From Leucothrix mucor (GTDB lineage Bacteria > Pseudomonadota > Gammaproteobacteria > Thiotrichales > Thiotrichaceae), in NCBI GenBank assembly GCA_015663245.1, contig DQSN01000245.1, forward strand, positions 1 to 39,767: a stretch of DNA of 39,767 bases, read 5' to 3'. Made by a program: the position numbers and the translations under genes. The notes under the pieces were generated by a model that was given only the letters and a program-made list of their open reading frames with translations, had not been told where the DNA came from and did not search any database. Positions 28,252 through 39,652 of this stretch are shown one piece after another (positions within the stretch are counted from its first letter, which is position 1; each line of letters begins with the position of its first letter).

Positions 28252-30759
<2,508 letters not shown>

Positions 30760-30811: not shown

Positions 30812-31900
30812 TTACATATTTGCTTCCGACACAACACCATGTTTCACGTGAAACATTTTAAGCTCTATATTACTGAACACTTCTGATAACACAGGGACTG
30901 TTAAAATCACCTGCTGTTGTAATGTACTCAAAGTATCTAACAATAGCGCCTGATTATGTCTATCTAATTCAGAGCTAATATCATCAATAATCACAACACC
31001 TGATTGTCCACCCCTTTTATTGATTGCATTACTTTGGGCAAGGTATAACAATATAGCCATTAATTTTAGCTGCCCTCTAGAAGCAGAAATGTTAGCGGGG
31101 CTATCATCCAATATAATTTTCATATCCGACTTATGCACACCGTAAAGTGTTCGCTTCATTTTGACTTCTTGTTCTAACTTGCTTTTATAAAAGGACAACG
31201 TGTTAAATGTATTTAATTCTCCGTTACTAGAAAATCCATTACCTAATCTCAATGAGATTTTATTATTTGGTAACAGCATATTTCTAAATACCTCAACATT
31301 TTCCTCCAATAAAGAAATAATAAAGTGACGTTTCTCGTGGATAATAGCTTGCGCTAAGATGAGTTCGTTCGTCCAATAATCAAAGTCACCACCTATCTTA
31401 TTCAAACGTAAGTAAGCATTCCTTTGCTTCAATATTCTTTGATGGTGTTTCCATAAGCGGTGGTACTCTGGCATTAGATAGAAACCTACCCAATCAATGT
31501 AACTTCGCCTCTCTGATGGAGAACCTACTATTAGTTTTATTGATTCTGGGTGGATAACGGTGACAGGAATATATTGACTAAGTTCTGCTTGAGAGCGTAT
31601 ATCTATTTGATTGATACGTATACGAGTCTCTGCTGATGATTTTTCTATGCCTATCTGCAATGTCACATCATCAGAAGATAGCTTAGATGTAATTAAAACT
31701 TTTTCTTTATTTTTACTGATCACATCGACTATACGTCGCGTACGAAAAGAGCGCCCACTAGATAAAATAGAGAATGCTTCCACAATACTTGTTTTACCTG
31801 AGCCATTTTCTCCAACAATTAAGTTGATCATTGGTGATAACTCTAATACGGCTTTATCTATCCTTCGACAGTTTTCTATCGTGATATTTATAAGCTTCAT
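30812..31900 (-). CDS. recF: DNA replication and repair protein RecF
   Basis: The 362-residue SMC-like ATPase has Walker A GENGSGKTS (30-38), the ABC-type signature ASRGQLKLMAILLYLAQ near 272-288 and Walker B VVIIDDISSELD near 301-312. It loads RecA at gaps with RecO and RecR. It starts 15 bp after the dnaN stop. The last codons (MFHVKH) are spelled by a perfect parS-type palindrome, so this end of the gene carries a second, DNA-level function. Confidence 0.96.
   Translation of the reverse strand: MKLINITIENCRRIDKAVLELSPMINLIVGENGSGKTSIVEAFSILSSGRSFRTRRIVDVISKNKEKVLITSKLSSDDVTLQIGIEKSSAETRIRINQIDIRSQAELSQYIPVTVIHPESIKLIVGSPSERRSYIDWVGFYLMPEYHRLWKHHQRILKQRNAYLRLNKIGGDFDYWTNELILAQAIIHEKRHFIISLLEENVEVFRNMLLPNNKISLRLGNGFSSNGELNTFNTLSFYKSKLEQEVKMKRTLYGVHKSDMKIILDDSPANISASRGQLKLMAILLYLAQSNAINKRGGQSGVVIIDDISSELDRHNQALLLDTLSTLQQQVILTVPVLSEVFSNIELKMFHVKHGVVSEANM
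30839..30856. promoter_or_regulatory. parS: parS centromere site (ParB-binding palindrome) inside recF
   Basis: The 16-bp sequence TGTTTCACGTGAAACA at 30840-30855 matches the widely conserved chromosomal parS consensus at every position. One further base on each side keeps the palindrome (18 bp). It lies about 3.8 kb from dnaA, as expected for the ParB-loading site that directs origin segregation. parA and parB are not in the window. Confidence 0.93.
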
Positions 31901-31915
31901 ACGTAGCTACAAGCT

Positions 31916-33022
31916 CTACAATCTGATCGGCATTACAACGTACTTAGTTGCTTGATCACCAACAGCCGTTAATAAAGCACTGCTATCAGGGTTGCTTATT
32001 TGCAGGTCTACTGTTTCTGTATCGAGGTGATTAACCGCATCTAACAGATAGCTTACATTGAACCCTATTTCTAACAAGTCACCTTCATAATTCACATCAA
32101 TCTCTTCTTCCGCCATTTCTTTTTCTGGGTTTGTTGAATGTAAAGTCATAACACCATCATAGAAACGCAAACGAATACCACGAAATTTTTCATTAGATAG
32201 TATTGCTACACGAGCAAGAGTATCACGAAATACTAGGCGGTCTAATTCGATATGGTAAGTACTAGATGCTGGAATTGCAGCTTGATAATCAGGGTATTTT
32301 CCATCTATTAATTTTGATGTGAATCGTATATTACCTTTTTTAACTCTAATGTGATTATCACTTAGGTATAACGTTAGCGGTAAATCACTACTACTATCCA
32401 ACAGCCGAGATAATTCTAATACTCCCTTTCGTGGAATAATTAAACTACTGTCTGATCCCCCAGTTCCTGTATCACTGCTATATTCACTAACAGCAAGTCT
32501 ATGCCCGTCGGTTGTAACGGTCTTTATTATATTCTCCTGAATATCTAAAAACAGTCCATTCAAATAATAACGCACATCTTGATTAGCCATTGAAAATGCG
32601 GTGCTATCAAACAAATGCTTCAACTCTTTTTCAGGTATAGATATTTCATTACTAAATTCAATATCATCCAATAAAGGGTAATCATCGGCTGGCAATATAG
32701 ACAGCTCAAATCGGCTACGTACGCCTTTTAAATTAAGCCTAGTATCATCTGTTTCTAATAAAATAAAACAGTCTGCAGGAAGAGCTTTGCAAATATCCAA
32801 CATCTTTTTCGCTGATGTTGTAATTGAACCATCTTCATCTGAACTAATATCACTCGATGATGATAATTCTATTTCTAGATCCGTTCCTATAAATGTCAAT
32901 TTTTCATTTTCTACCGATATGTAAACATTTTCTAAAATCTTCTTTGTTTGTTTTTTTTCAATCGCTCCTATGACGTGATTTAGTTGCTCTAACAATGTAT
33001 CTCTAGATATTGTAAGTTTCAT
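31916..33022 (-). CDS. dnaN: DNA polymerase III sliding clamp (beta subunit)
   Basis: The 368-residue protein starts MKLTISRDTLLEQLNHVIGAIEKK and shows the three-fold repeated clamp domain. It has DGHRLAV at about 171-177, FRGIRLRFYDG near the start of the third domain, and the terminal YVVMPIRL, as in E. coli DnaN. It encircles DNA as a dimer and tethers polymerase III. It lies between dnaA and recF on the minus strand; a 253-bp gap with DnaA boxes precedes it. Confidence 0.98.
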   Translation of the reverse strand: MKLTISRDTLLEQLNHVIGAIEKKQTKKILENVYISVENEKLTFIGTDLEIELSSSSDISSDEDGSITTSAKKMLDICKALPADCFILLETDDTRLNLKGVRSRFELSILPADDYPLLDDIEFSNEISIPEKELKHLFDSTAFSMANQDVRYYLNGLFLDIQENIIKTVTTDGHRLAVSEYSSDTGTGGSDSSLIIPRKGVLELSRLLDSSSDLPLTLYLSDNHIRVKKGNIRFTSKLIDGKYPDYQAAIPASSTYHIELDRLVFRDTLARVAILSNEKFRGIRLRFYDGVMTLHSTNPEKEMAEEEIDVNYEGDLLEIGFNVSYLLDAVNHLDTETVDLQISNPDSSALLTAVGDQATKYVVMPIRL

Positions 33023-33178
33023 AATTATTTTTTGGAAAATTTAAGTAGAATTAGTAGTAGTAATAGGGGGACTACTTTTATGTGTGTATCTTACCTTTAG
33101 TTTAATATTTCATATACTTAAACATAAAATACTGATGATTACACACAGGTATAAAGTAAGTCTAATATGTGTTTAATA

Positions 33179-33187
33179 TGTGGATAA
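33179..33187 (-). promoter_or_regulatory. DnaA box
   Basis: TGTGGATAA on the plus strand is the exact reverse complement of the consensus DnaA box TTATCCACA. Confidence 0.85.
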
Positions 33188-33235
33188 GTCTGATGTTTTT
33201 AGATTTTTCATAGTTATTCATGTTTCTTCCTTGGG

Positions 33236-33244
33236 TTATCCACA
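33236..33244 (+). promoter_or_regulatory. DnaA box
   Basis: TTATCCACA matches the consensus exactly. It faces the box at 33179 and lies about 30 bp from the dnaA stop. Confidence 0.85.
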
Positions 33245-33275
33245 GTTTATAAAGAGGGTTGTGTTTAGTTTTTTG

Positions 33276-34667
33276 TTAGCTTGTTAATATACGATGGAGA
33301 ATTGTATAACCCTCTTCTATTTGAGGATCTTCATTACGTAATTGCACGACCTTTTTACAGGCATGCATGACAGTTGTATGATCTCTACCTCCAAAATTTT
33401 CACCTATCTCAGGGTAACTATGATTTGTAAGTTCCTTTGATAGAGCCATCGCTATTTGCCGTGGTCTAGCTAAAGAACGCGTTCTTCTTTTTGAATTAAG
33501 ATCAGATACTTTAATGTAGTAGTGTTGTGCGACTGTTTTTTTAATATTATCAATGGTGATCATTTTTGCTTGGCTAGCTAGTTGGTCACGCAATGCATCA
33601 TGTACAAAGTCGAGTGTGGCCTCTGTTTGTTTTCTGAGGCGTAATGTAGCGACTACTTTTTGTAATGCACCTTCTAAGTCACGGACATTTGAGCTAAAGC
33701 GCTTAGCAATAAAAAATGCCACATCATTAGGTAATACAAGAGAGAATACATCCGCTTTTTTACGCAGTATCGCGACTCTTGTTTCTAGGTCGGGTGGGTC
33801 TATGGATACAGACAATCCTGAATTTAAACGTGTTCGTAAGCGATCATCAATGCCTTCTACATTTCTTGGGTATTTATCACTGGTTAATATTATTTGTTTT
33901 TGACCTTCTAACAGGGTGTTAAATGTATGGAAAAACTCTTCCATTGAACGTGTCTTGCCCGCAAAAAACTGTATGTCATCGATAAGCAATGCATCAGCAG
34001 TACGATAAAAAGTTTTAAATTCATTAATTTGGTTATTACGCAAGGCACTAACAAGGTCATTTACAAAATTTTCTGAGGTTAAGTAAACAACATGTGCACC
34101 AGGCTTTTGTTCTAGTATGCTGTTACCGATGGCATGCATCAGATGGGTTTTACCTAGACCAGAGCTGCCATAAATAAACAGAGGGTTATATGAGAAGCCT
34201 GGGTTTTCACTTACCTGCAAAGCAGATGCTCGAGCTAGTTGGTTCGACTTCCCTTCTACAAAATTATCAAATATCATCCCTTGGTTGAGATTATTAGTAA
34301 ATAGGTGTTTGACATCAGGAATAGGGGGTTGAGGTATTGGTTGTGAGTTATATTGATCGGTAGATGGGTATGATGGTTGGTTTTGTACCGCTGTAATTGG
34401 AATGTCTTTTTGGGGAGTGTTTTCTATAGGGTTTGATGAGCCTATTTGTAAAAATACTTGTACAGCATTGTTATTGGTGATTAAACGGGCACATTCACAT
34501 ATTCTAGGTAAGTGATGAGTACGCACATGTTGTAAAACAAACTCATTGGGAGCAAGTAATAATAGTGCATCATCATGTTGTGTGCCGTGTAATGTGCGTA
34601 ACCACGTATTAATTTCTTGATCTGGTAGCTCTTGTTCTAGATGTTTTAAGCATTGTTGCCAGAGCAT
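33276..34667 (-). CDS. dnaA: Chromosomal replication initiator DnaA
   Basis: The 463-residue AAA+ initiator has the four expected domains. Domain I (1-80, WLRTLHGTQ) binds DnaB helper proteins. Domain II is a flexible Pro/Gln linker (about 80-120). Domain III has Walker A GSSGLGKT (167-174), Walker B ALLIDDIQFFAGK and the box VII arginine region. Domain IV has the DNA-binding signature RPRQIAMALSKELTNHSYPEIG plus GGRDHTTVMHACKKV. It melts the origin and regulates genes. It is the first gene of the minus-strand block; its leader has an 11-bp inverted repeat. Confidence 0.98.
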   Translation of the reverse strand: MLWQQCLKHLEQELPDQEINTWLRTLHGTQHDDALLLLAPNEFVLQHVRTHHLPRICECARLITNNNAVQVFLQIGSSNPIENTPQKDIPITAVQNQPSYPSTDQYNSQPIPQPPIPDVKHLFTNNLNQGMIFDNFVEGKSNQLARASALQVSENPGFSYNPLFIYGSSGLGKTHLMHAIGNSILEQKPGAHVVYLTSENFVNDLVSALRNNQINEFKTFYRTADALLIDDIQFFAGKTRSMEEFFHTFNTLLEGQKQIILTSDKYPRNVEGIDDRLRTRLNSGLSVSIDPPDLETRVAILRKKADVFSLVLPNDVAFFIAKRFSSNVRDLEGALQKVVATLRLRKQTEATLDFVHDALRDQLASQAKMITIDNIKKTVAQHYYIKVSDLNSKRRTRSLARPRQIAMALSKELTNHSYPEIGENFGGRDHTTVMHACKKVVQLRNEDPQIEEGYTILHRILTS

Positions 34668-37658: not shown

Positions 37659-38996
37659 ATGATACCTCAAGATACGATAGTCGCAGTTGCAACACCTGCG
37701 GGACGAGGTGGTGTTGGCATTATTCGTGTCTCTGGTGATTTATCGGCACAGATAGCAATGACCATATTAGGTCATCTACCCTCCCCTCGAAAAGCCGTTT
37801 ATACAGAATTTAAATCAGAAAATGATGATATTCTAGATAGTGGCATTGCTATTTATTTTCCCTCCCCTCGCTCATTCACGGGCGAAAATGTAATTGAGTT
37901 TCAAGGTCATGGCGGACCTGTCGTGCTAGATATGGTACTAAAGCGCTGTCTTTCTTTAGGTGCTAGGTTAGCTAGACCAGGCGAGTTTTCTGAACGTGCT
38001 TTTTTAAACGATAAATTAGATTTGACCCAAGCAGAAGCCATCTCTGATTTAATCGATAGTAGCTCCGAACAAGCGGCACGTTCTGCTTTACGCTCACTGC
38101 AAGGTCATTTTTCTTCCGCTATTGATGATTTGCTTAATAAACTTATTGAGCTACGCGTCTATGTCGAAGCGGCACTGGATTTCCCCGAAGAAGAAATTGA
38201 TTTTTTAGCGGGAGATGCAGTTACAAATCGTTTGGATGAGATAAAGCAGCAACTACAGCAGATATTTAATAAAGCAAAACAAGGTAGTTTACTGCGCGAA
38301 GGCATGCAATTAGTGATTGTGGGGCAGCCCAATGCAGGTAAATCGAGCTTGCTAAATGCCTTATCAGGTAATGATAGCGCAATTGTCACGGAGATTGCAG
38401 GTACGACTCGGGATGTTTTACGTGAAACAATAAACTTGGATGGAATGCCCCTACATATCATCGATACAGCAGGTTTACGCGATAGTGACGATCCCGTTGA
38501 AAAAATAGGTATAGCACGTGCATGGCAAGAAGTAGAAAAAGCTGATCTAATTCTCTTATTAATTGATGACACAGACGATAATTTAGAAGGCAATACAAAA
38601 ATCTTACAGCGGTTACCTACAGCACTTCCTATTTTACAGGTACACAATAAAATAGATTTAAGTAAGAGAGAATTAGGTGAAAGAGACGGGAAGATTTATA
38701 TTTCTGCCAAGCAGCAGATAGGTATCGATTTATTAAAAAAACTACTTAAACACTATATGGGTTATCAAAGTGAGCAAGAAGATAGCTTTATAGCACGGCG
38801 TCGTCATTTACAAGCTTTGGAAGAAACACAACAAGCTGTTGATAATGCAGAGTATCAACTAAAAGAGTGTAATGCAGGAGAGCTAATGGCAGAAGAGCTA
38901 CGGTTAGCCCAAGACTCCCTAGGACAGATAACAGGTCGATATACATCTGATGATTTGTTAGGGGAAATATTCAGTAATTTTTGTATAGGAAAGTAG
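37659..38996 (+). CDS. mnmE: tRNA modification GTPase MnmE (TrmE)
   Basis: The 445-residue protein has the N-terminal folate-binding domain ([21 protein letters not shown] at the start). The inserted G domain has Walker [10 protein letters not shown] (222-230), [12 protein letters not shown] (245-256), DTAGLRD (269-275) and NKID near 328. The C-terminal catalytic CIGK (cysteine 442) completes the family pattern. With MnmG it makes 5-carboxymethylaminomethyl-uridine at tRNA wobble positions. mnmG, normally next, is not present downstream: an integrase remnant follows instead. Confidence 0.97.
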
Positions 38997-39157: not shown

Positions 39158-39175
39158 CCTAAAAAGGGAGTGGAT

Positions 39176-39652
39176 ATGGCATTGTCTGATACAGCACTTA
39201 AACGCTTGAAACCAAAAAATAAAAATTATTCTAAATTAGATGGGCGTGGTTTGTTTATCGAGGTGCTAAAAACTAAAAAAATATGGCGCTTGAGGTACAG
39301 AATAAACGGTAAACAAGAAAAAATAACCTTTGGTGAATACCCTACCGTACTACTAGTAGAAGCAAGGAAAATGCGAGAAGAGGCGAGAGGGTTAATAGCA
39401 AAGGGTATTTCACCTGCAAGGCATAAACAGCAAGCAAAGAGAGAAGAGACCAAACGATACACTGTAGAAGATTTTGCTAATGCTTGGTTTGTCGATGTAG
39501 CCAGTAAAGCAAATAAAAATCCAAAAACAATTAAGTCCGCATTAACAAATGATGTGCTTCCTATCGTGGGGCATTTAAAACTGGAAGATGTGATCGTTCA
39601 GGATGTATCAGCCGTTGTAGATAAAATAAAAGCACGAGGTTCTGATCATTAG
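39176..39652 (+). pseudogene. Truncated tyrosine-type integrase (DUF4102/P4-like), catalytic domain missing
   Basis: From the ATG at 39176 (ribosome site AAAAGGGAG) the frame codes for 158 residues. Residues about 1-85 are the DUF4102 N-terminal domain (LSDTALKRLKPK, GLFIEVLKTKKIWRLRYR, GEYPTVLLVEARKMREEA). About 95-158 are the start of the SAM-like core-binding domain (YTVEDFANAWFV, KTIKSALTNDVLPIVGHLKLEDV). The frame stops after ARGSDH. The R-H-x-x-R...Y catalytic domain of about 200 residues is missing, and none of the following 115 bp resembles it in any frame I read, so a rearrangement or insertion lies near 39652. It could not catalyse recombination as it stands. Confidence 0.85.

Follow-up and report, generated by a model that had tools for sequence, protein, structure and literature searches.

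Does a palindrome with the parS consensus that lies within the coding sequence of recF serve the segregation of the chromosome, or does it only mirror what the RecF protein needs? The question is raised by a stretch of 39,767 nucleotides from contig DQSN01000245.1 of Leucothrix mucor, which was analysed as a whole and is called the window in the following.

The parS word and its neighbourhood

The recF gene occupies positions 30812-31900 on the minus strand and encodes 362 aa (TIGR00611, 287.7 bits at a cut-off of 172, E 1.2e-85). By a sequence scan, the 16-bp parS consensus TGTTTCACGTGAAACA was located at 30840-30855 (no strand assigned) with 0 mismatches, and flanking A/T extend it to a perfect palindrome of 18 bp (30839-30856). 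In the frame of recF the sequence reads ATG TTT CAC GTG AAA CAT and gives MFHVKH, codons 349-354 of 362, the stop codon residing eight codons past the site. The first-pass annotation had described an exact and extended consensus match, situated near the end of the gene and not between genes, and both statements were confirmed.

Within the 2.7-Mb genome only this one exact copy of TGTTTCACGTGAAACA exists. From the base composition, 0.001 exact copies per genome and 3e-6 per 10-kb zone would be expected by chance. Three further parS-like words exist: mnmE contains one with a single mismatch, and a pair deviating at two positions lies on other contigs (C21 and C167); the scan for clustering that the first-pass annotation had recommended thus disclosed no convincing cluster. 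The mnmE word TGTTTTACGTGAAACA (38414-38429, no strand assigned), whose codons encode VLRET, was rejected as a conserved parS: at one mismatch it is missing from all genus-mates, and the same 16-mer was found in unrelated genes of other genera, a HemN-like gene and a response regulator. It is probably coincidental and only a weak parS candidate. Beside mnmE, at the end of the window (39170-39652), an ORF was noticed which by eye resembles the start of a P4-type integrase; no tRNA was found within the window.

The gene order on the minus strand is gyrB-recF-dnaN-dnaA. The next gene downstream of recF is gyrB (28252-30666), ahead of whose start codon parS begins at a distance of 189 bp, while dnaN (31916-33022) is the upstream neighbour, followed by dnaA (33276-34667; TIGR00362, E 2.9e-166). 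The dnaN-dnaA gap (33023-33275, no strand assigned) is the probable oriC, as judged from two exact DnaA boxes (33179 and 33236), whose count by itself is not above chance, together with a sign change of the GC skew. The palindrome lies about 2.3 kb from this probable origin and hence in the origin domain. It is separated from dnaA by 2.4 kb (3′ end) or 3.8 kb (start), which agrees with the roughly 4 kb given previously.

As a reading of the site as a ParB target presupposes, a ParB gene is present in the genome. A single ParA-ParB operon was identified (locus L005; 260 aa and 287 aa), and the genome gave only one ParB-domain match. This ParB possesses the CTP motif GERRWRA, and its nearest solved structures are chromosomal ParB proteins. 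By alignment to Caulobacter ParB it retains R173 and G201 (Caulobacter numbering), the residues that select parS over the Noc site (PMC7383237). The equivalent of Q162 is H, and positions 179 and 184, which are variable among ParBs, are occupied by L and E. Noc with its NBS site belongs to a paralogous DNA-binding family, and the NCBIfam Noc model scores the genome's ParB with 223.8 bits, below the cut-off of 315. Unlike Noc, however, the protein adjoins ParA, is encoded by a single copy and carries R173/G201 instead of Q173/R201, so that parS rather than NBS specificity is to be expected.

Conservation of the DNA word within recF

Of 30 recF loci from the family of the window, 28 contain the word at identical codons of the gene, 23 of them in exact form (Y/R being permitted at two wobble bases) and five with one mismatch. 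The two genes devoid of it have the tails LFEVKQG and LFTVQQG. After adding 150 further gammaproteobacterial recF genes (n=180 in total), a tail parS with at most one mismatch was found in 152 of 180. Such a word also stands in 123 of 180 genes at a second slot, WG-x-FHVE, which precedes the tail by about 620 bp, and at least one of the slots is occupied in 166. ACC is the ending of many words at the second slot and agrees with the Pseudomonas aeruginosa consensus TGTTCCACGTGGAACM (PMC5098823). Two recF sites are therefore typical of the class sample, though not required of a parS; the RecF of the window reads FYLMPEY at the internal slot and has the tail site only. Placement within the recF frame is conserved, the codons being common to 28/30 family genes and most recF genes of the class.

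In this frame, NTG-TTY-CAC-GTG-RAA-CAN specifies [MVL]-F-H-V-[KE]-[HQ], which is compatible with the C-terminal F-x-V-x-x-G motif of RecF. Exactly CAC, GTG and AAA/GAA are used by 149 of 154 tails of the type FHV[KE]. From the codon usage of each gene, CAC-GTG-RAA would be expected in 12.2 cases, and 20,000 simulations never exceeded 28. In an unbiased scan of 126 RecF columns, the six with the strongest codon bias were the H, V and E positions of both slots, tail and internal, with z-scores from 8.6 to 15.9. Moreover, the third base of the tail F codon covaries with K/E as the palindrome requires (odds ratio 12, P 8e-9). Owing to kinship among the sequences these counts are not independent and P values are inflated; firmer evidence comes from the contrast with other columns of these recF genes, to which the same tree applies. 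Taken together, the alignments yield strong evidence that the DNA word, and not only the peptide, is kept in recF, and the check suggested in the first-pass annotation, whether peptide and word are retained together, turned out positive.

Loss of recF and loss of ParB

The genus of the window offers cases in which the word can be followed without the gene. Four genus-mates (G002, G004, G005 and G007) lack recF according to protein searches, and in all of them a parS that is exact when Y/R wobble is permitted stands 97-196 bp ahead of gyrB. Three of the four have dnaN and gyrB on a single contig, separated by 163-353 bp that contain the parS, whereas the contig of G002 stops near the site; these junctions were taken as assembled. 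The GyrB tree indicates at least two independent losses of recF within the genus. Since close relatives that lost recF kept parS, the word is retained for its own sake. Outside the genus, 30 recF-less genomes were taken class-wide. In 26 of them gyrB was found, in 19 adjacent to dnaN, and 14 of these 19 dnaN-gyrB gaps contain parS with no more than one mismatch.

Some of these loci showed further peculiarities. Short dnaN-gyrB gaps with one or two parS words, some of them within palindromes of 20-30 bp, were seen in the recF-less loci L293, L300, L302, L304 and others. Directly upstream of gyrB, the recF-less G160 has about 14 tandem units of 43 bp, most of them with TGTTTCACGTGAAACC, that look like a parS array (L301, 816-1430). 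In G004 (L286, 9420-9455) a half-site precedes the parS on the gyrB side, TTTTAGGTGTTTCAC-TATGTTTCAC-GTGAAACACCTAAAA, forming a long inverted repeat into which half a parS is inserted. In the genus of the window (L006-L010, L286-L289), recF diverges fast, with 61-69% identity versus about 85% for GyrB. The fast divergence and the repeated losses suggest a relaxed need for RecF.

The opposite situation, recF without ParB, was encountered in Enterobacterales. Enterobacteriaceae are known to lack chromosomal par genes (PMC4368675). In a test of 24 named genomes, ParB matches at about 2e-54 or better were obtained for all 11 non-Enterobacterales, and none better than 6e-39 for the 13 Enterobacterales. 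Among the named genomes, Enterobacterales kept recF and the exact word was present in 0/23, while 49 of 57 others have the tail word within one mismatch. The RecF tails of Enterobacterales read MFTVEKG, MFRVEHG, MFAVDQG and the like. Five of the 23 nevertheless have a one-mismatch word despite the lack of ParB, with MFRVE tails and, in one displayed, CGC for CAC; the decay of the word is thus partial. The same relation recurs within one genus of family f28, where G086 has ParB and both words intact and G215 and G309 have no ParB and decayed words. Exact sites persist in G174 and G402, two fragmented MAGs without a ParB match; perhaps their ParB is encoded on missing contigs.

Exactness is also lost in some lineages with ParB. 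Vibrio, Photobacterium and Shewanella (L207-L272) have ParB and keep FHVEH, and a shared silent change of CAC to CAT, read in the loci displayed, breaks the parS core. The exact word can consequently vanish while the peptide remains. ParB-bearing lineages without a recF site are f52, f63 and f134, as well as L024/L029 of the window's own family. Several ParB-bearing families of this kind carry parS elsewhere, and sites at a distance of tens of kb were met in other lineages. Since some ParB-bearing lineages have none, the recF site is not indispensable.

Function of the site and alternative explanations

Judged from sequence and comparative data, we are highly confident in predicting that 30839-30856 is a working parS for the cell's single ParB, and ParB very likely has its main loading site on the chromosome in this word of the recF tail. 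We infer that ParB would occupy the site and be loaded there as a CTP clamp, and that the site would act as the main or only centromere. According to this model, a single ParB dimer would bind the word and close as a CTP-dependent clamp; clamps sliding outward would build up the partition complex, which ParA would move, making the oriC region the first to segregate. Lying in a gene of the operon, the word would have to encode RecF as well, and selection for ParB binding would fix synonymous codons together with the histidine and lysine/glutamate residues of the RecF tail. The view of the first-pass annotation that this end of RecF is constrained by segregation as well as by protein function is well supported by the codon bias, by the word outliving recF and by the loss of its exactness without ParB.

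The palindrome might instead be a by-product of RecF conservation, FHVKH being needed by the protein and codon bias happening to spell parS. The peptide is indeed partly under protein constraint, as F, V and G of the motif stay even in RecFs without a site, and Vibrio-type RecF retains FHVEH with a broken word. The codon choice (149/154 versus 12 expected) is nevertheless at odds with such a by-product, as is the loss of the flanking histidines in lineages without ParB, and the persistence of the word after deletion of recF already contradicts it; we consider this explanation very improbable. For a chance match nothing speaks beyond the general occurrence of short palindromes. The low number of copies expected per genome and the recurrence of the same codons throughout the family stand against it, and with the comparative data excluding it, its probability is practically nil.

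It is also quite improbable that the site acts mainly in the control of dnaN-recF-gyrB operon transcription by ParB and not in segregation. In several relatives parS is located 107-220 bp upstream of gyrB, and an excess of ParB in P. aeruginosa reduces expression around parS1-4, gyrB included (PMC5521831). However, at the native ParB level the P. aeruginosa genes beside parS1/parS2 were unchanged on loss of ParB or parS (PMC5521831), and two separate recF slots, with sites tens of kb away elsewhere, are more in keeping with a loading site than with an operator. Our preferred reading of the palindrome thus remains that of a segregation site.

A parS within recF is not new, as it is already documented in P. 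aeruginosa. There parS1 and parS2 lie inside recF, about 4 kb from oriC (PMC3909081, PMC5521831), and are bound by a Spo0J-type ParB (PMC5521831, PMC5098823); one of the four parS is enough for segregation, and sites with two mismatches are unbound in vivo (PMC5098823, PMC4368675). The window shares with this system a chromosomal parS in recF near oriC, but has the tail slot only and one exact genomic site versus a cluster of four. parS1/parS2 are probably the counterparts of the two-slot layout that most Gammaproteobacteria show, Halopseudomonas pelagia (L275) among them, the assignment of the slots being putative. With the chromosomal parS of Bacillus subtilis and Caulobacter the window has in common the 16-bp consensus, the ParB family and the parS-type specificity residues (PMC7383237), and differs from them by a site in the coding sequence of recF whose placement is conserved across a class. 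Relevant papers on parS with recF, dnaN and gyrB dealt with P. aeruginosa only. In the open-access literature covered, which does not include the main survey of parS distribution, nothing turned up on conservation at two fixed recF slots throughout the class, nor on a parS that outlives recF or resides in the dnaN-gyrB gap.

We regard it as fairly likely that the dnaN-gyrB segment is an ancestral stationary centromere of Gammaproteobacteria, whose words are dual-encoded at two recF slots, have shaped RecF residues and outlive a deleted recF, so that gain and loss of ParB may be read from the RecF tail. The comparison shows that selection for segregation has left its mark on a protein-coding gene for a very long time, and the dissociation is double: the site is kept without the gene, and the exact site is lost without ParB. 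Conserved RecF residues may accordingly serve something other than RecF, which is a warning for their interpretation. The lineages also represent natural replicates for asking why parS keeps so close to oriC, within a few kb, though larger zones are permissive experimentally, and the pattern makes the main centromere of uncultured Gammaproteobacteria simple to predict.
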